Origin: Bacteroidia bacterium | GTDB taxonomy: Bacteria; Bacteroidota; Bacteroidia; Flavobacteriales; Flavobacteriaceae | DNA: 64,000 bases | Direction: 5' to 3' | Assembly: GCA_030427735.1 (NCBI GenBank) | Contig: JAUIBP010000002.1 | Location: 372,001 to 436,000 of the forward strand | Shown: positions 4,750 to 51,680 of the stretch, one piece after another | How positions within the stretch are numbered: the stretch's first letter is position 1 | How the letters are laid out: each line of letters begins with the position of its first letter | Position numbers and translations under genes: made by a program | Notes under the pieces: generated by a model | Databases searched by the model: none | Told to the model about the DNA's origin: nothing | The model's input: the letters and a program-made list of their open reading frames with translations, nothing else

Positions 4750-5733
4750 TTAATCGAGTTTTATCGATTTTAAAATAGCATCGAGTTCGAATACATAATC
4801 GCGTTTTTCTACCGAAGGCGCAAATGTAAATCCTTCTACAACTACTAATCTGTTATTGGCTTTGTCTGTAATAATGTAATTTAAAAACGGACCAGACATA
4901 AAAGCGTTTTTAACATCCCAAATACCTTTGGTTTCTATAGTTGGTTTATCGTTTATAGTTGTATGGAATAAATACGGTGCATAGGCCTGTTCTGTTATCA
5001 TATACGTGCCTTCTGTTGGCCCTGGAATATGCACCTGCCCTATAGAATCGCGTATTTTTATAATTTGACTTACTAAACTATCATCTTGTTTTAAAGCTTG
5101 TAAAGGCAATTCGTAAATCATGATATTTTGTGTACCTGTTGTAATGTCTTTACGCAACCAAAAAAACTTACCTTCGTTTTTGGCTATTCTGTAAGCACTT
5201 GGCACCTTCATTTTAAGGCTTAAAGCCTCTTCCAATTGATCTATTTTTAAAGGCGATAAATTAATTCGTCTTTGTTTTTCCTTAATTTCCTCGTTTTTAA
5301 AAGCATCTATAATTTTATCTTTATTCGCTTCTAATTCAGCAATTATTTCGGCATCTGTTTGTCCGGTAATTAGCACTACTTTTTGTGGCAATGCAAATAC
5401 ATTTTTTGCAAATTTTACTTCGGGCGATTTATGCTCTCCTTTTTCTATTTTTAAGACCGTTCTGTTTTTAGTTGCAAATCCAGAAAATACTTGTGGTGGT
5501 ATTTGGCTTAAAGAAAATAATGGCTCGTCTTGTGGTAAGCCATCTACTGGCGCTGCCAACACATCGCGAATGGCTTCACCTACACCGCCCTGCCATAATT
5601 CGTTTTTAATAACAACCGATAAATTATTAATGTTTCCAGACGATTCTGGTAAAATAACTTGTGCTGTTTTTTTGTCGTTGTTACAACTGTTTAAGACCAA
5701 AATGGCCGATAATAAGAATAGAATTTTACGCAT
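4750..5733 (-). CDS. DUF4837 family lipoprotein
   Basis: A 327-residue protein with a lipoprotein signal peptide: a hydrophobic run followed by LNSC, the lipidated cysteine being C17. The rest matches the Bacteroidota family DUF4837, whose role is not known. The body is mixed alpha/beta with no membrane segment, so it should sit on a membrane facing the periplasm. The gene starts 22 bases after mltD stops and is the last gene of the pgk-mltD-DUF4837 run, closed by the hairpin at 4701-4733. Linkage to a murein hydrolase suggests an envelope role, but nothing in the sequence proves one. Confidence 0.85.
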   Translation of the reverse strand: MRKILFLLSAILVLNSCNNDKKTAQVILPESSGNINNLSVVIKNELWQGGVGEAIRDVLAAPVDGLPQDEPLFSLSQIPPQVFSGFATKNRTVLKIEKGEHKSPEVKFAKNVFALPQKVVLITGQTDAEIIAELEANKDKIIDAFKNEEIKEKQRRINLSPLKIDQLEEALSLKMKVPSAYRIAKNEGKFFWLRKDITTGTQNIMIYELPLQALKQDDSLVSQIIKIRDSIGQVHIPGPTEGTYMITEQAYAPYLFHTTINDKPTIETKGIWDVKNAFMSGPFLNYIITDKANNRLVVVEGFTFAPSVEKRDYVFELDAILKSIKLD

Positions 5734-5755
5734 AATAGTATTGATTTTTAGTAAT

Positions 5756-7366
5756 TTAACCTTTATATAGCTTTAAGGTCATTCCAGGTTTTAAATTACT
5801 ACCACTAATACCGTTCCATTCTTTAATATTTTGCACAGAAATTCCAGAATGTTTTTGTGCAATGCTCCATAACGAATCTCCTTTTTTAACTACATAATGT
5901 TTTTCTTCTGAAGTTTTTGATGATGTAGATGTCGAAGCAACTTGTGGCTCTGAAGGCTTTTTTGGTGCCACATTAGGGTTTCTTGGATAAATGGTAAGGC
6001 GTTGGCCAATTTTAAGATTATTACTTCTTAAACCATTCCATTGCTTGATTTGGCTAACACGCACGCCATATTTCCTGGCTATTTTACCTAAATAATCGCC
6101 AGACCGTACGGTATATCTTGTTTTAGATTCCGATTCGAAAAATTGTGGTAAAGGTTTTTCACGTTTATCGAATTCGGCTTTAGCAAAAGCGTAAATCAAC
6201 TCTTCATTAGCCACAAAAGGCCCTATAGCATGTACAGGTAAACGCAGTGTATAATTCTCGTCTTTTATAAAAGGAATAATATCTAATTTATACGACGGAT
6301 TTAAAAACTGAAGTTCTTCTATATCGACTCCTGTTACTTCAGAAACTTGGTCTAAAGTTATCATTTGCTTTACATGCAAGGTATCGGTTTCCATATAAGC
6401 AAACTCTGGCTTGGCTTTAGAAAAGCCTAATTCTTCGGCATTCTCAAAAATATACATGGTTGCCAAAAACGCTGGTAAATATCCTGCAGTTTCGCGAGGT
6501 AAATACGGTCTTATATTCCAATAATTTTCGTAACCGCCAGAACGTCTTATCGCTTTAGTAACATTACCTGGTCCTGAATTATATGCGGCCAAAGCCAGAT
6601 CCCAATCGCCAAAAATTTCGTATAATTTAGATAAATATTTCGCAGCTGCTTCTGTCGATTTTAAAGGATCGCTACGCTCATCTACATAACTACTTACATC
6701 TAGTCCATATAGTTTACCTGTAGAAAACATAAATTGCCAAAGTCCAGTGGCTCCTACCCTAGACTTTGCTCTTGGCTTTAAAGCCGATTCTACAATGGCT
6801 AAATATTTAATTTCTAACGGAAGATCATAATTATCTAACTCTCTTTCGAACATCGGAAAATAATACTCGCTAAGCATCATAAGCTTTTGAAGCGTTTTAC
6901 GACGATTTTTTAAATACGATTTTATAACACTTTCCAACGATGGATTATAAGCGACATTAAATGGTGTTTTAGCATCTAACTCTAATAATCTTTTTTTAAG
7001 TGTATCGGTATTTAATTCGGGATATTCGACTTCATCGAAAGTTAGTTCGGTAACCGATTCGTAAATAGTATCGTATAAAGTATTACTGTATAATTCCTCT
7101 AACCATTGCTTATCTACAGCTGCTGTGTAAGCGTGATCTTGCATATTTTCTATGCTTAAAGAATCTACAACAGGCTTAATGGTTTGAGGCTTGTAATACG
7201 TTTGTCCGTCTATAATGGTATCGACCACATAATTTTCGCCAGACACCAACTCATTTTCTGTTAATCTTTGTGTTTTTACTTTTACAACCAAAGAATCTTG
7301 GGCAAAAGTTACCGTTACGCATAATAACATTACGCATAATAAGTAAATATTCAGTCGCTTGTTCAT
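5756..7366 (-). CDS. mltD: Membrane-bound lytic murein transglycosylase D-like, SLT plus two LysM domains
   Basis: A 536-residue secreted enzyme with a signal peptide (1-22, ending TFAQ). The SLT domain covers about 175-310, with the catalytic glutamate E193 in AIVESAL, then GATGLWQF (205-212) and AYNSGPGNV (261-269), all conserved in the family. Two LysM peptidoglycan-binding domains follow at about 417-461 and 490-534, separated by a Pro/Ser/Thr-rich linker. It cleaves the MurNAc-GlcNAc bond with formation of 1,6-anhydro ends. There is no lipobox, unlike E. coli MltD, so attachment is probably through LysM. It lies 111 bases downstream of pgk and 22 bases before the DUF4837 lipoprotein. Confidence 0.9.
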   Translation of the reverse strand: MNKRLNIYLLCVMLLCVTVTFAQDSLVVKVKTQRLTENELVSGENYVVDTIIDGQTYYKPQTIKPVVDSLSIENMQDHAYTAAVDKQWLEELYSNTLYDTIYESVTELTFDEVEYPELNTDTLKKRLLELDAKTPFNVAYNPSLESVIKSYLKNRRKTLQKLMMLSEYYFPMFERELDNYDLPLEIKYLAIVESALKPRAKSRVGATGLWQFMFSTGKLYGLDVSSYVDERSDPLKSTEAAAKYLSKLYEIFGDWDLALAAYNSGPGNVTKAIRRSGGYENYWNIRPYLPRETAGYLPAFLATMYIFENAEELGFSKAKPEFAYMETDTLHVKQMITLDQVSEVTGVDIEELQFLNPSYKLDIIPFIKDENYTLRLPVHAIGPFVANEELIYAFAKAEFDKREKPLPQFFESESKTRYTVRSGDYLGKIARKYGVRVSQIKQWNGLRSNNLKIGQRLTIYPRNPNVAPKKPSEPQVASTSTSSKTSEEKHYVVKKGDSLWSIAQKHSGISVQNIKEWNGISGSNLKPGMTLKLYKG

Positions 7367-15529: not shown

Positions 15530-15561
15530 ATTTTAGGTGTTCCACGTGGAACACCTAAAAT
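15530..15561. promoter_or_regulatory. parS-type ParB-binding palindrome (32-bp perfect inverted repeat)
   Basis: The core GTTCCACGTGGAAC is the sequence bound by chromosomal ParB proteins across bacteria (parS). Here it sits in a perfect 32-base palindrome with no loop, from 15530 to 15561, whose right end touches the first base of the mnmG stop codon. Because no T-run follows on either side, a terminator role is less likely than a protein-binding site. Confidence 0.8.
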
Positions 15562-17432
15562 TATCTGCCCATATAAACAAGTAAAACAGAAATATCGTTA
15601 GGAGAAACACCACTAATTCGTGATGCTTGAGAAATAGTTGTAGGCTGGATTTTCTTTAATTTTTCGCGAGCTTCAAAACTCATAGATTTAATTTTAGAAT
15701 AATCGTAATTAGCTGGAATTTTAATATCTTCTAATCTTGATAACTTATCGGCATTGTTTTTTTCCTTTTCGATATAACCAGAATATTTAACTTGAATTTC
15801 GGCTTGCTCGATAATCTCACGATCTAAATCATGTTCTACAATAAAATTTTCTATTTCTTCAATTTGTCTAACATCGGACATATCGATATTTGGTCGCGCA
15901 AAAATTTTAAACAATTTACCAGATTGATTTACTAAAGCAGACTCTTTAGATTCTAAAATAGGATTTACAACCTCAGGTTTAACGCTTGTATCCTTAAAAA
16001 ATTGTACAAATTCATCGGCTTTAGTTTGCTTTTCTTCCATGCGTTTAAGACGCTTTTCTGTAGCCAAACCAATTGCATAACCTTTAGGCGTTAATCTAAA
16101 ATCGGCATTATCCTGTCTAAGTAACGTTCTATATTCTGCTCTTGAAGTAAACATTCTATAAGGTTCTTCTGTACCTTTAGTAATTAAATCGTCTATTAAA
16201 ACACCTATGTAAGCTTCACTACGTTTTAATATAAATTCATCTTTCTCCTGAACTTTCAAACTGGCATTAATACCAGCCATCAATCCTTGCGAAGCTGCCT
16301 CTTCATACCCTGTAGTTCCATTAATCTGACCTGCGAAATATAAGCCATTAATCAACTTTGTTTCTAACGTATGTTTAAGTTGCGTTGGCGGAAAATAATC
16401 GTATTCTATAGCATAACCCGGACGGAAAAATTTCACGTTTTCGAATCCAACCACAGAGCGTAAAGCTTTAAATTGAACATCTTCTGGAAGTGAAGTAGAA
16501 AAACCATTAACATAAACTTCGCAGGTATTCCATCCTTCAGGCTCTATAAACAACTGATGACGATCTTTATCTGCAAAGCGATTAATTTTATCCTCGATAG
16601 AAGGACAGTATCTTGGTCCTAAACTTTTAATTCTTCCGTTAAACATAGGCGAACGATCGAAGCCTTCACGCAACAAATCATGTACCAATGTGCTCGTATA
16701 CGTCATATAACAAGACCGTTGTTTTATTAGCGGCTTGGTAACATCAGAATAAGAGAATTTCTCTGGCTGTTCATCACCAGGTTGTTCTATCATTTTAGAA
16801 TAATCTAGGGAGCGACCATCCACTCTAGGCGGTGTTCCCGTTTTCATTCTACCAGACGTAAATCCTAAATCAACTAACTGTTCTGTTATACCAGTTGCAG
16901 CGCGTTCACCAGCTCTACCTCCACCAAAATTCTTATCTCCTATATGTATTAATCCGTTTAAAAAAGTTCCATTAGTAAGTACGACTGACTTGCAACGCAC
17001 TTCAATTCCAAGTGAGGTTTTAACACCTACAACACGATCACCTTCTATAATTAAACCAGAAACCATGTCCTGATAAAAATCTAAATTAGGAGTTTGCTCA
17101 AGCATTAAACGCCAATCTTCAGCAAAGCGCATTCTGTCGCTCTGCACCCTCGGACTCCACATTGCTGGTCCTTTAGATTTATTAAGCATTTTAAACTGGA
17201 TAGCAGAAGTATCGCTAACAATACCACTATATCCCCCTAAAGCATCTATTTCTCGAACGATTTGTCCTTTGGCAATTCCACCCATAGCAGGATTACAAGA
17301 CATTTGCGCAATGTTTTGCAAATTCATAGTAATAAGCAAGGTGCTACTACCCATGTTTGCAGCAGCAGCCGCAGCCTCACTACCAGCATGACCAGCTCCT
17401 ACAACAATAACATCATACTCTCTATCGAACAT
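15561..17432 (-). CDS. mnmG: tRNA uridine-5-carboxymethylaminomethyl modification enzyme MnmG (GidA)
   Basis: A 623-residue FAD-dependent enzyme that, with MnmE, modifies the wobble uridine of several tRNAs. The FAD-binding loop GAGHAGSEAA is at 12-21. Family words include MSCNPAMGGIAKG near 45-57, the paired-cysteine region around RYCPSIEDKI, and the C-terminal tRNA-binding helical part with EASRISGVSPNDI-like QASRISGVSPNDISVLL. Length is normal. The gene is flanked on both sides by parS-type palindromes. In many bacteria gidA lies near the origin of replication, which fits. ybeY lies 52 bases upstream in the same direction. Confidence 0.97.
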   Translation of the reverse strand: MFDREYDVIVVGAGHAGSEAAAAAANMGSSTLLITMNLQNIAQMSCNPAMGGIAKGQIVREIDALGGYSGIVSDTSAIQFKMLNKSKGPAMWSPRVQSDRMRFAEDWRLMLEQTPNLDFYQDMVSGLIIEGDRVVGVKTSLGIEVRCKSVVLTNGTFLNGLIHIGDKNFGGGRAGERAATGITEQLVDLGFTSGRMKTGTPPRVDGRSLDYSKMIEQPGDEQPEKFSYSDVTKPLIKQRSCYMTYTSTLVHDLLREGFDRSPMFNGRIKSLGPRYCPSIEDKINRFADKDRHQLFIEPEGWNTCEVYVNGFSTSLPEDVQFKALRSVVGFENVKFFRPGYAIEYDYFPPTQLKHTLETKLINGLYFAGQINGTTGYEEAASQGLMAGINASLKVQEKDEFILKRSEAYIGVLIDDLITKGTEEPYRMFTSRAEYRTLLRQDNADFRLTPKGYAIGLATEKRLKRMEEKQTKADEFVQFFKDTSVKPEVVNPILESKESALVNQSGKLFKIFARPNIDMSDVRQIEEIENFIVEHDLDREIIEQAEIQVKYSGYIEKEKNNADKLSRLEDIKIPANYDYSKIKSMSFEAREKLKKIQPTTISQASRISGVSPNDISVLLVYMGR

Positions 17433-21434: not shown

Positions 21435-22946
21435 ATGACTAAAAATGTTCGTGTGCGTTTTGCACCAAGCCCTACCGGACCACTTCATATTGGTGGTGTA
21501 CGTACAGCTTTATTCAATTATTTATTTGCGAAAAAACATAACGGTACTTTTGTTTTAAGGATTGAAGATACCGACCAAAACAGATATGTAGAAGGTGCCG
21601 AAAACTATATTATTGAGGCCTTAAACTGGTGTAATATTCCGTTTGATGAAGGCCCAGGAAAAAACGAAAAATTTGGTCCGTACAGACAAAGCGAACGTAA
21701 AGCATTATATAAAAGTTATGCCGAGCAATTAATTGCTTCTGGTAATGCTTACTATGCTTTTGATACTGCAGAATCGTTAGATTTTCACAGAAAAGATCAC
21801 GAAGAAAAAGGGAAAACTTTTATCTATAATTGGCACAATCGTTTAAAGTTGAACAATTCGTTAGCGCTTTCTGAAGCAGACGTTCAAGCTAAATTAGATG
21901 CTGGCAAAGATTATGTTATTCGTTTTAAATCGCCTCAAGACGAAACTTTGCATTTAAAAGATATGGTGCGTGGCGATATTAAAATCGATACCAATATTCT
22001 AGACGATAAAGTATTGTTTAAAAGCGATGGTATGCCAACTTACCACTTAGCGAATATTGTAGACGACCATTTAATGGAAATTACTCATGTTATTCGTGGC
22101 GAAGAGTGGCTGCCTTCCCTAGCCTTACATTATCAGCTTTACAAAGCCTTTGGTTGGGATGCTCCAGAATTTGCTCATTTACCACTCATTTTAAAACCAA
22201 CAGGAAAAGGTAAATTAAGCAAACGCGATGGCGATAAACTTGGTTTTCCGGTATTTCCGTTAGAATGGACAGATCCAAAAACCAACGACGTTTCGCGTGG
22301 GTATAAAGAAGATGGTTATTTTCCAGAAGCTGTTATTAATTTCTTAGCCTTTTTAGGATGGAATCCAGGAACCGAACAAGAATTATTCAATTTAGAACAA
22401 TTAATTGAAGCTTTCGATATTGCTAGAGTAAACAAAGCAGGTGCTCGATTTGATCCCGATAAAATAAAATGGTTTAACCACCATTATATGCAGGAACAAA
22501 CTAACGACAGTTTAGCCGAAACGTTTAAAAATCAACGTGAAGAATTAGCCGATATCGATGTGAATTATGTGGCTATGGCCGTTGGTTTAATTAAAGAACG
22601 CGCTACGTTTGTTTCCGATTTATGGGATTTAAGTCATTTCTTTTTCATTGCGCCACAAGCGTACGACGAGAAAGCCTATAAAAAAGCTGTTAAAGAAGAT
22701 ACTAGAGCACTTTTAAGCGAATTGGCTACACAAGTTAATACCATTGAAGATTTTGAAGTAGAAACTATTCAAACTACTGTAAAATCGTGGATTACTTCAA
22801 AGGAAATAGGTTTTGGAAAAGTAATGATGCCTTTACGACTCGCACTTGTGGGCGCCTTACAAGGCCCCGATGTTTTTGACATTATGTTTATGATAGGTAA
22901 ACAAGAAACCATAAATAGAATAGAAAATTTAGCAACTACCATATAA
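21435..22946 (+). CDS. gltX: Glutamyl-tRNA synthetase
   Basis: A 503-residue class I aminoacyl-tRNA synthetase that charges tRNA-Glu with glutamate. The HIGH-type word is PSPTGPLHIGGVRTA (11-25) and the KMSKS-type word is KLSKRDG (260-266). The anticodon-binding helical domain fills the C-terminal third. Length is usual for bacterial GltX. A separate glnS gene is present in this window, so tRNA-Gln need not be charged by this enzyme. The ATG at 21435 gives MTKNVRVRFAPSPTG, the standard start. A strong hairpin follows directly after the stop. Confidence 0.97.
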   Translation: MTKNVRVRFAPSPTGPLHIGGVRTALFNYLFAKKHNGTFVLRIEDTDQNRYVEGAENYIIEALNWCNIPFDEGPGKNEKFGPYRQSERKALYKSYAEQLIASGNAYYAFDTAESLDFHRKDHEEKGKTFIYNWHNRLKLNNSLALSEADVQAKLDAGKDYVIRFKSPQDETLHLKDMVRGDIKIDTNILDDKVLFKSDGMPTYHLANIVDDHLMEITHVIRGEEWLPSLALHYQLYKAFGWDAPEFAHLPLILKPTGKGKLSKRDGDKLGFPVFPLEWTDPKTNDVSRGYKEDGYFPEAVINFLAFLGWNPGTEQELFNLEQLIEAFDIARVNKAGARFDPDKIKWFNHHYMQEQTNDSLAETFKNQREELADIDVNYVAMAVGLIKERATFVSDLWDLSHFFFIAPQAYDEKAYKKAVKEDTRALLSELATQVNTIEDFEVETIQTTVKSWITSKEIGFGKVMMPLRLALVGALQGPDVFDIMFMIGKQETINRIENLATTI

Positions 22947-29345: not shown

Positions 29346-31385
29346 TTAAAGTTCTGAAGCTACAGCTGCTAAAATAGCATTAGTATCTGTAATGCCTTTT
29401 TCTATAAATTCGGAAATCGCAGGGTTACGCTCTAAACCATTGTTTAACAGTACTTGTAAAACTAAGGTAGCAGCTATACGTGTTCCTACCTTTTTTGCCG
29501 CTGTACCAAATAATGGCTCTAACTCGTCGTAAGAAACATCTTTAGCCAATTCTAAAATTTCGGCTTTTACCTTTAATTGTTTAGCTTCTGGTAAATTCGT
29601 GTATTTTTTACCTAATTGCTGAATAACATCAATTGCTTTACGCTGCGGAATATTGGCTTTAGCTTTGGCCGATTGATTTTGTTGAGTTTGCGGTTTTGGT
29701 TTTTCTTTAGCCCAAGAATCGCGTAAACCAACAGTTTTATTAAATATTAATTGCTCTGGTTTAGAATCATTGTCAACATTAAAATACCCTAATCTTTGAA
29801 ATTGAAATCTATCGCCTATTTGAGCTTCTTTCAAACTTGGTTCTACATAAGCAGTTAGCATTTTTAAAGAATTCGGATTTAAAAATTCCATAAAACTTTT
29901 ATCGGCATGGCTATCTGGAGCTTCGTCTAAAAACAATCTGTCGTATTCCCTCACTTCGGCTTCTACAGCATGCGCTACCGATACCCAATGCAAAGTGCCT
30001 TTTACTTTTCGTAAACTGGCTTCGGTACCACTACCACTTAAAGTATCGGGATCGTAAGTACAATGAATTTCTGTAATCGTTCCGTTTTCGTTTTTAATAA
30101 CGCTTTCACCTTTAATTATATACGCATTTTTTAAACGCACTTCTTTACCTAAAGTTAAACGGAAATACTTACTATTAGCTTGTTCTTTAAAATCCTCACG
30201 CTCTATGTAAAGTACTTTAGAAAATGGCACTTGTCTAAATCCAGCACTATCATCTTCTTGATTATTTTCTGCCTCTAACCATTCTACTTTATCCTCAGGA
30301 TAGTTTGTAATTACTAACTTAACAGGATCTAAAACCGCCATAACACGCGGTGCAGTTTTATTTAAATCTTCGCGAATACAAAATTCTAAAAGCGATACAT
30401 CAATCACATTATCACGCTTGGCAACACCAACAGTTTCCACAAATTTTCTAATGGATACCGGTGTGTAACCACGACGTCGTAAACCAGAAATTGTTGGCAT
30501 TCTTGGGTCGTCCCAACCAGATACTACATTTTCGTCTACCAATTGTAGCAACTTACGTTTGCTCATTATGGTATAACTTAAATTTAAACGCGCAAATTCC
30601 CGTTGTTTTGGTATTAACGGATATTCACTCGCTGAATATTGATGTACTTGATGCTTAAACCAGTTGTATAACTCGCGGTGCGGTTTAAACTCTAACGAAC
30701 ATAAAGAATGCGACACTTGCTCGATATAATCGCTTTCACCATGTGTCCAATCGTACATTGGGTAAATGCACCAATCGTTACCTGTACGATGATGTGTTTT
30801 CTTTAAAATACGGTACATAATAGGGTCGCGCATTAACATATTGGTATGCGCCATATCTATTTTAGCACGTAAAACATGTTCGCCTTCGTTAAATTCGCCA
30901 GCTTTCATGCGGTTGAACAAATCTAAATTTTCTTCAATCGTTCTATCTCTGTAAGGACCATCTACACCTGGTTTAGTCGGTGTTCCTTTTTGCTCGGCCA
31001 TAGCTTCAGACGATTGCGAATCGACATAAGCTTTACCATCTTGTATTAATAATACCGCCCAGTCGAACAATTGCTGAAAGTAATCTGAAGAATACACTTC
31101 TTTATCCCACGAATACCCCAACCACGACACATCGCGTTTAATAGCATCTACATATTCTTGTTCTTCTTTTACAGGGTTCGTATCGTCAAAACGAAGATTT
31201 ACTGGAGCATTATACCGCTCCCCTAATCCAAAACTAATACCTATAGCTTTGGTATGCCCAATGTGTAAATAACCATTAGGTTCTGGTGGAAAACGAAATC
31301 TTAAATCGTCTTTCGATAATTCGGATTTTAAATCGTTTTCTACAATATGTTCAATAAAATTGAGTGATTTAGTTTCTTCAGACAT
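29346..31385 (-). CDS. glnS: Glutaminyl-tRNA synthetase with C-terminal extension
   Basis: A 679-residue class I synthetase that charges tRNA-Gln directly. The HIGH word is at 41-44 (PPEPNGYLHIGHTKA) and the KMSKS-type word MSKRK at 274-278. The two beta-barrel anticodon domains end near residue 560. Unlike the E. coli enzyme (about 554 residues), about 118 more residues follow. They begin with a Q/K/A-rich linker (562-580) and continue as helices up to the end (LAAVASEL). This tail does not clearly resemble the YqeY domain known on Deinococcus GlnRS. Its presence means tRNA-Gln need not come from the amidotransferase route. The gene diverges from folB and is followed by a terminator. Confidence 0.95.
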   Translation of the reverse strand: MSEETKSLNFIEHIVENDLKSELSKDDLRFRFPPEPNGYLHIGHTKAIGISFGLGERYNAPVNLRFDDTNPVKEEQEYVDAIKRDVSWLGYSWDKEVYSSDYFQQLFDWAVLLIQDGKAYVDSQSSEAMAEQKGTPTKPGVDGPYRDRTIEENLDLFNRMKAGEFNEGEHVLRAKIDMAHTNMLMRDPIMYRILKKTHHRTGNDWCIYPMYDWTHGESDYIEQVSHSLCSLEFKPHRELYNWFKHQVHQYSASEYPLIPKQREFARLNLSYTIMSKRKLLQLVDENVVSGWDDPRMPTISGLRRRGYTPVSIRKFVETVGVAKRDNVIDVSLLEFCIREDLNKTAPRVMAVLDPVKLVITNYPEDKVEWLEAENNQEDDSAGFRQVPFSKVLYIEREDFKEQANSKYFRLTLGKEVRLKNAYIIKGESVIKNENGTITEIHCTYDPDTLSGSGTEASLRKVKGTLHWVSVAHAVEAEVREYDRLFLDEAPDSHADKSFMEFLNPNSLKMLTAYVEPSLKEAQIGDRFQFQRLGYFNVDNDSKPEQLIFNKTVGLRDSWAKEKPKPQTQQNQSAKAKANIPQRKAIDVIQQLGKKYTNLPEAKQLKVKAEILELAKDVSYDELEPLFGTAAKKVGTRIAATLVLQVLLNNGLERNPAISEFIEKGITDTNAILAAVASEL

Positions 31386-33466: not shown

Positions 33467-35653
33467 TTAATGATGTTTGCCTATTAAATTAAAATCGAGA
33501 TGCTTTTTAACTAAATCGGTTTCTTTTACAGTTACAACAACTTCGTCTCCTAACTGATACATATTTTTAGTTTCTCGGCCTATAATAGCGTACTGACTTT
33601 CGTCGAATTCGTAATAATCGTCTTTAATATCTCGAATTCTAACCATACCCTCGCATTTATTAGAAATGATTTCTACGTAAATCCCCCAATCTGTAACGCC
33701 AGAAATAACACCTACAAATTCTTCGTTTTCATGATCTTGCATAAAACGTATTTGCATGTATTTAATAGAATCGCGTTCGGCTTTTGTGGCTAAATATTCC
33801 ATATTACTGGAATGTTTACATTTCTCTTCGTAAATACTTTCGTTGGCCGATTTTCCGCCATCTAAATATTGCTGTAACAAACGGTGTGCCATTACATCGG
33901 GATAACGACGAATAGGTGATGTAAAATGACTGTAATAATCGAATGCCAACCCATAATGCCCAATATTTTGGGTGGTATATTCGGCTTTACTCATGGTTCT
34001 AATTGCTAGAGTATCTACTAAATTTTGCTCTTTTTTACCTACAACATCGGTTAATAAAGAGTTTAACGAGGCGGTTGTACTTTTTCGATCTTTTAAATTC
34101 AGTTTATAACCAAATTTAGACACTACATTTTGTAAAGCGTATAATTTAGTTTCGTCTGGCTCGTCGTGTACTCGGTAAATAAACGTTTTTTCTGGACGTT
34201 TTTTACCAACAAATTCGGCCACTTTTTTATTTGCCAAAAGCATAAATTCTTCGATTAATTTATTGGCATCTTTGCTAGTTTTAAAAAATACTCCTACAGG
34301 GTTATTTTCTTGATCTAAATCGAATTTAACTTCTACTTTATCAAAAGAAATAGCTCCAGAACGCATACGCTTAGAACGCATTTTTTTGGCCAATTCGTCT
34401 AATTTTAAAATGGCATCGGCAATCGCTTGATCGGCCAAATAAGCTTCTCCTGTTAACGATACATCTTGCGGAATACTATTGCTTTTCGTTTCGATAATAG
34501 CCTGAGCTTCTTCGTAAGCAAAACGTGCATCGCTATACGTTACTGTTCTACCAAACCATTGGTTTAAAACTTCGGCTTTATTATTTAATTCAAAAACAGC
34601 AGAAAAAGTATATTTTTCTTCGTGCGGACGCAAGGAACATGCGTTGTTAGAAAGTATTTCTGGCAGCATAGGTACAACGCGATCTACTAAATATACCGAT
34701 GTGGCACGCTCGTAAGCCTCATCGTCTAAAATTGTACCTTCTTGCACATAATGCGATACATCGGCAATATGGATACCAATTTCAAAATTGCCATTATCTA
34801 AAACTTCAAACGACAACGCATCATCAAAATCTTTAGCATCTTTAGGATCTATTGTAAAGGTGAGTACCTTACGCATATCGCGACGTTTTTTTATTTCGTC
34901 TGCAGTAATACTGGTATCTATAGCATTGGCATAATCTTCAACCTCATTAGGAAACTCGTATGGCAAACCATAATCGGCTAAAATAGCATGTATTTCGGTT
35001 TGGTGTTCGCCAGGTTTACCCAATACTTTTAGCACTTTTCCGTAAGGCGAATCGGCATTATCTGGCCAATCTTCTAGAGCAACCAATACTTTATCGCCAT
35101 CTTCTGCCTGCGCTGTTTTGTTAATAGGTATAAAAATGTCTTTATACATTTTATTGCCATCAACCACAACAAATGCGTAATTTTTATGTAACTGAATTAC
35201 ACCAACATACTCACTTTTAGCACGTTTAATAATGCCTGTAATTTCACCTTCTAATCGGCCTCTTTTACGGCGTTTATAAACGTATAATTCTACTTCGTCG
35301 CCATGTAAGGCTTTATTTATATTATTAGAAGCTATGTATATATCGTCTTCAAAAGCATCCGAAATAACGTAACCAGCACTTTTAGAGGTTAAATCTAAAA
35401 TGCCTGTATAATACTCGGTGTTAATAACGGCTTTAAATTTACCGCGTTCTACTTCTTCTATGTCTTTTTTAGCTGCAAGAGCATGCAGTTTTTTTATAAT
35501 TTGATTTCTGCTACTAGCATCGTTTACATTTAAATTAGCAGCAATTTGTTTATAGTTAAAGGTTTTATTGCGTTCCTTTCTTAGAATATTTAAAATCGTT
35601 TTGGAGAGATTAGAAATTCCTTTAGAAGCTTTCTTTTTTCGCTTTCTTGTCAT
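33467..35653 (-). CDS. rnr: Ribonuclease R
   Basis: A 728-residue 3'-5' exoribonuclease that degrades structured RNA. A basic start and a winged-helix-like region (about 14-75) lead to cold-shock-type OB folds (about 80-215). The RNB catalytic domain (about 255-600) has its metal-binding aspartates in DPKDAKDFDDAL (269-280). A C-terminal S1 domain (about 640-725) has FVGVISGVTDWGIYVEI. Length is a little short of E. coli RNase R, as is usual in Bacteroidota. The gene is the first leftward gene at the divergent gene-free region, so its promoter lies in the right-hand 709-base spacer. Confidence 0.95.
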   Translation of the reverse strand: MTRKRKKKASKGISNLSKTILNILRKERNKTFNYKQIAANLNVNDASSRNQIIKKLHALAAKKDIEEVERGKFKAVINTEYYTGILDLTSKSAGYVISDAFEDDIYIASNNINKALHGDEVELYVYKRRKRGRLEGEITGIIKRAKSEYVGVIQLHKNYAFVVVDGNKMYKDIFIPINKTAQAEDGDKVLVALEDWPDNADSPYGKVLKVLGKPGEHQTEIHAILADYGLPYEFPNEVEDYANAIDTSITADEIKKRRDMRKVLTFTIDPKDAKDFDDALSFEVLDNGNFEIGIHIADVSHYVQEGTILDDEAYERATSVYLVDRVVPMLPEILSNNACSLRPHEEKYTFSAVFELNNKAEVLNQWFGRTVTYSDARFAYEEAQAIIETKSNSIPQDVSLTGEAYLADQAIADAILKLDELAKKMRSKRMRSGAISFDKVEVKFDLDQENNPVGVFFKTSKDANKLIEEFMLLANKKVAEFVGKKRPEKTFIYRVHDEPDETKLYALQNVVSKFGYKLNLKDRKSTTASLNSLLTDVVGKKEQNLVDTLAIRTMSKAEYTTQNIGHYGLAFDYYSHFTSPIRRYPDVMAHRLLQQYLDGGKSANESIYEEKCKHSSNMEYLATKAERDSIKYMQIRFMQDHENEEFVGVISGVTDWGIYVEIISNKCEGMVRIRDIKDDYYEFDESQYAIIGRETKNMYQLGDEVVVTVKETDLVKKHLDFNLIGKHH

Positions 35654-35746
35654 AATCTACTTTTCTATTGTAACAAAGCTACATTATAAAAACTAAATGA
35701 ATGTTTCTTTAATAAGAAGTTTATTCAATTTCGTTTTCAAATGCAG

Positions 35747-35755
35747 TTATTCACA
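35747..35755 (+). promoter_or_regulatory. DnaA-box consensus match
   Basis: TTATTCACA fits the TTATnCACA consensus exactly. A single box is expected by chance fairly often in AT-rich DNA, so its value comes from the place where it sits. Confidence 0.5.
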
Positions 35756-35817
35756 TATTATATAATTATCTATTTTTCTTTTTTAAAAATTTAAAATAAA
35801 ATACTGTTTATTATGGT

Positions 35818-35964
35818 TTGTTAATAACTGGTATAACTTTTTTAGGTTTTATTTTGATTAGTTATTGTTTACACTTTATGGTGATAAAATAAACAGGTTA
35901 TTATGTATTTAATAGCTTAAAATTAAACTATTTGTATATTACTGTTAACAATTGTTAATAACTG
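35818..35964 (+). repeat. Two direct copies of a 13-mer in the gene-free region
   Basis: TTGTTAATAACTG occurs at 35818-35830 and again at 35952-35964, 134 bases apart. The second copy overlaps the palindrome TTAACAATTGTTAA. Short repeated 13-mers near an AT-rich stretch are known from origins; that reading is inference. Confidence 0.65.
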
Positions 35965-36362
35965 TATTTTACAAGTTATTTTTAATAATAATTTTGAAAT
36001 TTGATGTGTATAGCGTTTTATTTTGGTCTAAAAACTTTTCTAAATAAAATGGCTAAAATTTTTGGAGTGTATTGTTAAAGATTTGGTTGTAAAAATAATT
36101 GAGATTTAAAAATAAAAGTTTCAAAAAGTAATCAATAGATATTAACAATTAATTAATACTATTTTAAAAATTATAAACAGTGTTTTACTTCATTGTTTAG
36201 TTAAGGTAAAACTATTGTAAAACCTAACCTTTTGAAAATGAGTTAACATAGGTAATTATGAGGCTTTTAACTGTATTATTAAGAGCCATTTTGTACCTTT
36301 ACAGTTTATAAACAAGGCCATAGTTAATGGCAATTAACGAATTATATACCTTTAATTAGATT

Positions 36363-36797
36363 ATGAAAATTTCAATTGGAAATGATCACGCCGGAACAGC
36401 TTACAAATTTGCTATAGTAAAACATTTAGAAGCTAAAGGATATACGGTTAAAAACTACGGTACAGACGAAACCTCTAGTGTAGATTATCCAGATTTTGTA
36501 CATCCAGTAGCAACTGATGTTACCGAAAAAACTGCCGATTTTGGCATTATTATTTGCGGTAGTGGTAATGGCGCAAATATGACAGCCAATAAACACCAAG
36601 CGGTGCGATCGGCTTTATGTTGGACCAAAGAAATTGTTGTACTTGCCAGAGAACATAATAATGCAAATGTTTTGAGTATTCCTGCCCGATTTACTGCTTT
36701 AGAACAAGCTATAGAAATGGTAGATGCTTTTTTAAATACCGAATTTGAAGGCGGGCGTCATCAAAATCGCGTTAATAAAATAGCCGTGAGTTGCTAA
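36363..36797 (+). CDS. rpiB: Ribose-5-phosphate isomerase B
   Basis: A 144-residue enzyme of the RpiB/LacAB family that interconverts ribose 5-phosphate and ribulose 5-phosphate. The start KISIGNDHAG binds phosphate and substrate (D8, H9), and CGSGNGANMTANK (65-77) contains the catalytic-base cysteine C65 and the oxyanion loop. The ATG at 36363 is the only sensible start. The next gene, a cation transporter, begins at the base after the stop, so four plus-strand genes (36363-38591) form a tight run. Confidence 0.95.
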   Translation: MKISIGNDHAGTAYKFAIVKHLEAKGYTVKNYGTDETSSVDYPDFVHPVATDVTEKTADFGIIICGSGNGANMTANKHQAVRSALCWTKEIVVLAREHNNANVLSIPARFTALEQAIEMVDAFLNTEFEGGRHQNRVNKIAVSC

Positions 36798-37709: not shown

Positions 37710-38144
37710 ATGAATAAACCTTTTGCTATAACATATAAATATGCAGTATGGTTTACACTGTTGTGTTTAAATGTAACACTACTATCCTGCTCTATTATTA
37801 CTGATGAAATTGGCGATCGGATTGAAGAAAATGCTAATAATGATATTGATGAATTACAAGCTGCTATAAAAAATAATACCCCGTATATTATAGAACGTGC
37901 CGAAATTAAAACCGATAAAATTATCCAAGTTTACGGCCCAATACAACCCAATAGCGTATCGCAATACAAAAATTTTAACAGTTTGTTTAACGAAGAAGCT
38001 ATACTTATAAAAACGAAAGACGAAGTTTTTAAATTTACCCCAAAACAGCAAGATAACACAACCAAAGTGAGCGATGGTTCTTTTTATTTTGAAGTCAGTT
38101 TATCCGAAAAAAGAACCTTAATTATTAACAGAAAGCCTTATTAG
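37710..38144 (+). CDS. Unrecognised lipoprotein
   Basis: A 144-residue protein I do not recognise. A long N-terminal hydrophobic stretch (about 11-26) ends in LLSC, so C27 is probably lipidated; the signal is longer than usual. After it comes an acidic helical part (DEIGDRIEENANNDIDELQAAI, about 32-53), then alternating strands up to the end. It lies between the CDF transporter and the acetyltransferase with 3-base gaps on both sides, so it is part of this run. A link to metal handling is possible from context only. Confidence 0.65.
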   Translation: MNKPFAITYKYAVWFTLLCLNVTLLSCSIITDEIGDRIEENANNDIDELQAAIKNNTPYIIERAEIKTDKIIQVYGPIQPNSVSQYKNFNSLFNEEAILIKTKDEVFKFTPKQQDNTTKVSDGSFYFEVSLSEKRTLIINRKPY

Positions 38145-51551: not shown

Positions 51552-51680
51552 AGCGTAATAAATAAGAGTACTTATAAACCTATTAAATTTTTATAAGTTT
51601 AAAGGTTACATTTTAATAAAAATAATTCCTAATTTTTTGAATTAAGTAATGATTAATAATTAAAAATCAATATTTTATAA

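Follow-up and report, generated by a model that had tools for sequence, protein, structure and literature searches.

The spacer between the divergent genes rnr and rpiB is very likely the chromosomal origin of replication (oriC) of the source Flavobacteriaceae species. The window, as the whole stretch of 64,000 nucleotides analysed is called here, covers positions 372001-436000 of contig C9 in a 3.64-Mb, 99.94%-complete assembly of 20 contigs. An initial annotation, made from the letters of the window, had proposed a chromosomal origin at this place, and this reading is now supported by a GC-skew switch, by the sampled parts of the other contigs, by the complete chromosome of a relative, by a cluster of boxes and by published predictions. 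Features of the locus are collected in Table 1. The results obtained by computation are the location of the switch (resolved to several kb), the enrichment of boxes, their fixed spacings, the interchange of box types at box A and the changes in the contact residues of DnaA. Taking these results jointly, we consider it probable that oriC lies at the spacer, that DnaA binds there to TTAT[TC]AACA as well as to the classical TTAT[TC]CACA, that the DNA melts between boxes A and B and that forks depart from it bidirectionally.

The 709-base spacer is, as was claimed, the longest stretch of the window without an open reading frame of at least 100 aa (gaps were compared by eye), and it is AT-rich as described, with a computed 79.8% A+T. 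Among all 50-base and all 300-base stretches of the window, those richest in A/T start within it, at 35753 and 35694 respectively; the 100-base stretch with the highest A/T content starts outside it, at 51581. Judged by composition, the A/T-rich unwinding element by which an oriC is recognised is present here as the 50-base stretch with 94% A+T. An Rfam search gave only a chance-level match, inside rpiB (E 0.29). Downstream of rpiB, a 144-aa open reading frame at 37710-38144 (+) had no NCBIfam or Pfam match.

Table 1. Genes, boxes and conserved blocks at the proposed origin (window coordinates; offsets are counted from box B, and fractions refer to the spacers of the spacing test)
Feature	Position	Strand	Remarks
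mnmG	15561..17432	-	TIGR00136 match, Pfam GIDA
gltX-like tRNA synthetase gene	21435..22946	+	Pfam tRNA-synt_1c and Anticodon_2
glutaminyl-tRNA synthetase gene	29346-31385		left of the spacer
rnr, ribonuclease R	33467..35653	-	flanking gene; NCBIfam RNase_R 724 bits, cut-off 598
rnr-rpiB spacer, proposed oriC	35654..36362	.	cumulative GC-skew minimum, A+T, conserved blocks and boxes in relatives
Box A, TTATTCACA	35747..35755	+	classical type; 72 bp before box B
Proposed unwinding tract, TTTTCTTTTAAAATTTAAAA-like block	35756..35811	.	holds most of the 94% A+T 50-base stretch
Block adjoining box B	35808..35817	.	NAT triplet run in some relatives; two repeats here
Box B, TTATTAACA	35819..35827	-	variant type, central reference box; reverse boxes here in 31/39 spacers
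ATAACTTTTTTA block beside box B	35833..35844	.	conserved in 20-species alignment
Box C, CTGTTAACA	35942..35950	+	left half of inverted pair; forward box at about +124 in 21/39
Box D, TTATTAACA	35953..35961	-	right half of inverted pair; reverse box at about +135 in 17/39
Box E, ATATTAACA	36139..36147	+	forward box at about +321 in 14/39
Possible weak box F, TTATAAACA	36171..36179	+	one mismatch; +352; forward box at +353 in 7/39
rpiB, ribose-5-phosphate isomerase B	36363..36797	+	flanking gene; NCBIfam rpiB 142.5 bits, cut-off 138.65

Box types, fixed spacings and the initiator protein

The exact DnaA box given by the initial annotation at 35747, TTATTCACA, is exact with respect to TTATNCACA and has one mismatch to TTATCCACA. 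The near-match reported at 36005 found no counterpart at a comparable place in 19 relatives compared by eye. The 13-mer TTGTTAATAACTG does occur twice (35818 and 35952), the meaningful repeat being the shorter TGTTAATAA inside it, and the palindrome is present as 14 bases at 35945-35958. What could not be seen from a single sequence is that the spacers of relatives carry TTAT[TC]AACA, rather than mainly the classical TTATCCACA.

For the counting of boxes, 9 of 80 related loci were excluded as having no rpiB and 8 of the 71 with rpiB as having spacers over 1400 bp, and expected numbers were taken from shuffles under a dinucleotide model. By k-mer counting, TGTTAATA was found in 59 of the 64 spacers, including that of the window (155 copies; 10.5 spacers expected). 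The spacers of the 63 relatives contain 206 copies of TAT[TC]AACA, the 8-base core of TTAT[TC]AACA, versus 18.1 expected, and 35 copies of the classical core TAT[TC]CACA versus 4.8 expected; elsewhere in these loci, 89 intergenic regions together contain 4 copies of the former (6.0 expected) and 1 of the latter (2.4 expected). At least one TATYAACA is present in 61 of the 63 spacers and at least two in 57, and TATYCACA is present in 26, so that 37 are without any. The spacer of the window has three copies of TATYAACA (0.29 expected, a number of three being reached in 0.6% of 2000 shuffles) and one classical TATYCACA. A cluster of DnaA boxes, another feature by which an oriC is recognised, would exist in the spacer only if TTATYAACA is counted as a DnaA box.

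The arrangement of the boxes was studied in 39 of the 64 spacers (that of the window plus 38 from relatives) in which box B and the ATAACTTTT block could be recognised, a box-like 9-mer being defined as TTAT[TC][AC]ACA matched at 8 or 9 positions. Such a 9-mer lies 71-73 bp upstream of box B in 37 of these 39 spacers, the window among them, and at offsets of 20-120 away from 71-73 no three-offset stretch exceeded 1/39. When the best 9-mer at 70-74 bp is taken from each spacer, 8 spacers have TTATYCACA, 12 have TTATYAACA, 9 have TTTTCAACA and 10 have other forms. It is mainly because the classical and variant types interchange at this fixed position of box A that the variant was called a DnaA box, and TTAT[TC]AACA is, on the evidence of sequence comparison, likely to be a lineage-specific one. 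The fixed offsets downstream (Table 1), to which a reverse box at +146 from box B in 12 of the 39 spacers may be added, were compared with a mean of about 0.9 per 7-bp bin. The TTTTCTTTTAAAATTTAAAA-like block is conserved in an alignment of 20 species and in further genomes of the family, and a TATTAACAAgTAAT block is conserved in the box E region in the alignment of 20 species.

In some respects the window is a weaker example than many relatives, with its classical box A, its two NAT repeats and a G inside box C. The run of NAT triplets that some relatives have beside box B may serve as DnaA-trios. At least three NAT triplets were found at 17 of 205 sites in the spacers of the 63 relatives (shuffles gave a mean of 5.1 and a maximum of 12), and on the other side of the box at 1 of 206 sites. 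This test is stricter than the published NAN rule, which A/T-rich DNA would frequently satisfy by chance.

The inverted pair TRTTAACA-NN-TGTTRATA has one occurrence in the source genome, in the rnr-rpiB spacer. As a family-wide marker it was set aside, since it is not universal: 60 of 199 genomes match it, against 6 with the control (counts by eye). Besides the source genome, the pair lies within 5 kb upstream of rnr in 17 of 59 matching genomes. The perfect palindrome TATTAACAATTGTTAATA recurs in many genomes of the family away from rnr, where it may have the role of some other site.

Domain IV of the source DnaA aligns without gaps to that of Escherichia coli in 1J1V, the numbering of which we take to start at residue 374. 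The source protein keeps R399, R432, D433, H434, L438 and H439 and has Ala in place of P423 and T435. The segment SLA[SN]IG..IG.RDHATVLHA was found in 30 of 30 relatives, with Ala423 and Ala435 and with R432, D433, H434, L438 and H439 kept. The classical contact set R399, P423, D433, H434, T435 and H439 is therefore incomplete, having Ala at 423 and 435, and R399 was read in the source protein only; outside Flavobacteriaceae, DnaA was compared with PDB chains only. Directly before RDHATV, 25 of the 30 relatives have K or Q; the other five (L200, L204, L216, L220, L227), of which four are Flavobacterium and one is Chryseobacterium, have D or S.

According to the available text of PMC7561715, Firmicutes and E. 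coli share conserved P423, D433, H434, T435 and H439, and in Thermotoga DnaA these contact residues, one arginine excepted, are not conserved. Binding of DNA by the E. coli protein is described as requiring R399 and T435 (PMC4245941), and D433 and L438 are said to matter for box position 7 (PMC8235120). We infer that the two Ala changes may cause the change at box position 6.

With moderate confidence we lean towards a re-specified origin code, in which a DnaA with Ala423 and Ala435 would read TTAT[TC]AACA and a rigid ruler of two convergent boxes 72 bp apart would bracket the melting tract. Boxes A and B face each other, 72 bp from start to start, across the A/T-rich tract. DnaA bound to both, helped by the downstream boxes, would form a filament that melts the tract; as in general oriC biology, helicase would then be loaded and forks would depart both ways, leaving behind the GC-skew switch. 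If this is true, the 72 bp correspond to about seven helical turns, initiator and box have changed together, and the origins of Flavobacteriaceae can be found by a simple pattern.

That TTATYAACA is instead the site of another protein, such as a regulator of rnr or rpiB or a nucleoid or segregation protein, with DnaA using the few classical boxes, seems unlikely to us. Many spacers have no classical core and nearly all have the variant one, both types interchange at box A, DnaA itself is altered at contact positions 423 and 435, and loci L024 and L047, in which no rpiB was found, retain 7 and 4 clustered TATYAACA upstream of rnr; on the side of another protein stand the enrichment of the classical core in the same spacers and the lower affinity that departures from TTATNCACA are reported to cause in E. 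coli (PMC5043019).

The rnr-rpiB locus in related genomes

Gene rpiB is present in 71 of the 80 related loci and is divergent from rnr in all 71. Among the nine loci without it, L005, L019 and L052 end within 1 kb upstream of rnr, and L013, L017, L041 and L042 have zero to two TATYAACA in their densest 700 bp. The densest 700-bp cluster of TATYAACA starts inside the spacer or not more than 100 bp from it in 61 of the 71 loci. Four loci (L003, L008, L023 and L032) have its start 160-240 bp ahead of the spacer, and for the remaining six the densest cluster is elsewhere, tied or a single site. In total, the densest cluster of the 14-kb loci is in the spacer or at its edge in 65 of 71. Comparison of the spacer across relatives, which the initial annotation had named as a check, favours the origin: the box cluster and the fixed spacings are found here and not in other intergenic DNA of the loci.

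The box cluster upstream of rnr is absent from some relatives, e.g., L055 and L013. In L055 (Flavobacterium enshiense DK69) the rnr-rpiB spacer at 5607-5994 has 385 bp, 64% A+T and no box; for another strain of F. enshiense, the skew switch was placed at gltX, as given in the available text of PMC9867689. Locus L013, which covers 6 kb upstream of rnr, has no rpiB and no TATYAACA anywhere. The origin may have been lost or moved in L055 and may have moved in L013.

Patterns built from the boxes were also searched in further genomes of the family. A loose search pattern, in which 61-65 bases separate box A from box B, was rejected as a marker, with 117 of 199 genomes matching and about 47 matching the reversed control (by eye); because chance matches are common, only its position relative to rnr was used. 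It lies at most 10 kb upstream of rnr at 24 of 51 sites, in 24 of 34 genomes (0.15 expected), these 34 being, among the matches listed, genomes with a known rnr position from the 59 preselected for a match to the inverted pair. Of 148 genomes of the order, 9 have a match to a stricter pattern that also takes in the A/T tract, and the control gave no match. All nine are among 21 Flavobacteriaceae, with 0 of 127 in other families (21 and 127 were counted by eye), so that the pattern misses over half of the window's own family.

GC skew in the window, the genome and relatives

The six 60-base blocks in which the initial annotation had counted G and C by hand were exact on recount, and the skew switch suspected from them is real in the window, the cumulative GC skew of which bottoms at 35,804, inside the rnr-rpiB spacer. 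In 500-base bins the best split is at 35,500 (t = 7.3; the maximum in 2000 permutations was 7.16), and the change is therefore supported far beyond that small sample of blocks. Mean GC skew is -0.091 left of the split and +0.024 right of it; the positive skew on the right is weak, most right-side genes are on the minus strand, and the final 10 kb of the contig past the window have a skew of -0.032. Cumulative keto skew, which had been suggested as a further check, has no minimum at the spacer within the window.

The view that the switch is free of a coding effect held when third codon positions were conditioned on gene strand, as these still switch at the spacer. From left to right of the spacer, the plus-strand skew of third positions goes from -0.037 (21 genes) to +0.275 (13/13 positive) in minus-strand genes and from -0.271 (5 genes) to -0.011 (7 genes) in plus-strand genes. 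A strand-corrected fit, i.e., a regression on gene strand plus one step, placed the best step in the window between genes at 32.73 and 32.77 kb, with the six best splits spanning 31.9 to 38.6 kb and the spacer fifth, not first, among them. None of 1000 permutations matched this fit, and the same was found for 94 kb of contig C9, where the six best splits, spread over 31.4-38.6 kb, do not include the spacer. The strand-corrected switch is at the spacer or within about 3 kb of it, and skew alone resolves to several kb.

A change from negative to positive skew reads alike from both strands, so the orientation of contigs is irrelevant. Ten other contigs of at least 100 kb were sampled at 2-4 places each, contig C10 around dnaA only, and eight contigs under 100 kb over their first 20 kb; a second negative-to-positive switch was not found among these sampled parts. 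Nine of the ten contigs are single-signed, and C12 alone goes from positive to negative. This change, between 155 and 270 kb of C12, marks the probable terminus region. Gene dnaA is located on a different contig, C10, and the skew around it has no sign change, its two sides having +0.07 and +0.17. An origin cluster at dnaA was considered and rejected, as no box cluster was seen by eye upstream of dnaA in the source genome.

Formosa sp. L2A11 is the closest named genome by RNase R among the matches listed (87% identity), in a scan that may have left out records very near the source genome. Its complete chromosome (NZ_CP047028.1, locus L078) was studied in 40 samples of 20 kb. The rnr-rpiB spacer lies there at about 1,134.8-1,135.5 kb, and the opposite point would be 3.03 Mb. 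Third-position skew stays negative until the 1,045 kb sample, is near zero or positive at 1,140-2,660 kb and is negative again from 2,755 kb, alike for plus and minus genes, which gives a single negative-to-positive switch, near rnr and rpiB. Raw skew is noisy: three samples of the negative arm, where most genes are on the plus strand, have 0.017 to 0.028, one sample of the positive region has -0.006, and raw values turn from positive to negative near 3.06-3.14 Mb. When cumulated, raw skew reaches its minimum at 1,110,618, at a distance of 24 kb from the spacer; with strand correction the best split falls at 1,148 kb and the next five splits are at 1,137.7-1,146.2 kb (2-13 kb from the spacer). 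The record starts at dnaA and the samples flanking dnaA are both negative.

Two further genera gave similar results. In a 2.0-Mb contig of Mangrovimonas xylaniphaga, the 15 samples to the left of the spacer are without exception negative, and on the right a value of -0.004 at 24 kb is followed by four positive samples beyond. In a 1.76-Mb contig of Aquimarina sp. AU474, 7 of 8 left samples are negative (the contig-end sample has +0.041) and 6 of 6 right samples are positive.

An origin in the same neighbourhood in some other gap, for example beside mnmG or gltX, is in our opinion improbable. In the window mnmG and the gltX-like gene lie 13-20 kb from the spacer, on its left, and there is no gap near 709 bases beside either of them, whereas the skew minimum and the box cluster of the window coincide in the spacer, and most of the related loci likewise have their densest cluster within the spacer or at its edge. 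What speaks for another gap is the resolution of skew, which is several kb, the optimum in L2A11, which falls on the rnr/mnmG side, and the naming of mnmG and gltX in published predictions. According to the available text of these sources, mnmG is named by a skew-based oriC prediction in Algorimicrobium (PMC12843772), and in Mariniflexile litorale the predicted oriC is at mnmG (PMC11278836). The latter paper contradicts itself in its available text, which places oriC beside mnmG and in a figure legend gives mnmG as ter.

It is very improbable that the spacer is an ordinary divergent promoter region and the skew change a coding effect or the scar of an inversion: gene direction does change locally at rnr and rpiB, but the strand-conditioned third-position skew still switches, other genera switch at the same genes, and in many genera the boxes keep their spacings across more than 300 bp.

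Comparison with published origins and meaning for the family

An oriC far from dnaA and near mnmG or gltX is already in print. In Bacteroidetes the origin is described as commonly far from dnaA (PMC4755523), and in Elizabethkingia a 649 bp oriC was predicted far from this gene (PMC8994065). The proposed origin resembles the Bacteroidota origins predicted by Ori-Finder and held in DoriC, as far as the available text describes them, in its negative-to-positive switch, its distance from dnaA and its nearness to mnmG and gltX. It differs from the Ori-Finder predictions in that a gene is named there and a 709-base spacer with mapped boxes is given here; the default box of Ori-Finder is TTATCCACA, and most of the boxes here differ from it. 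The rnr-rpiB spacer, TTATYAACA as a DnaA box and the 72-bp spacing were not found among the open-licence papers listed by the literature searches, and DoriC may hold the spacer for some relatives.

The basal unwinding system, as presented in the available part of PMC8287927, requires at least three NAN triplets within 16 bases of a DnaA box. The proposed origin is similar in having a box beside an A/T-rich tract, with middle-A triplets in the spacers of 17 relatives. It is different in that the triplets are 5'-NAT-3' here and 3'-GAT-5' in the published consensus, with two in the window, and in that boxes stand on both sides of the tract at 72 bp, which is absent from the published rule as described.

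Lineage-specific DnaA boxes are known in Cyanobacteria, Thermotoga and Epsilonproteobacteria, and in Thermotoga most base-contact residues differ too, according to the available text of PMC7561715. What sets the present lineage apart is A for C at box position 6 together with P423A and T435A, the other examined contacts being kept.

In Bacteroidota, the common guides for placing an origin are skew and an indicator gene. The box, the spacing and the gene address described here would let oriC be placed to the base in much of the family. This would help to orient genomes and would provide a natural test of the joint change of DnaA and its box, two residues versus one base. A further implication is that replicating plasmids for marine flavobacteria might be given a natural origin.
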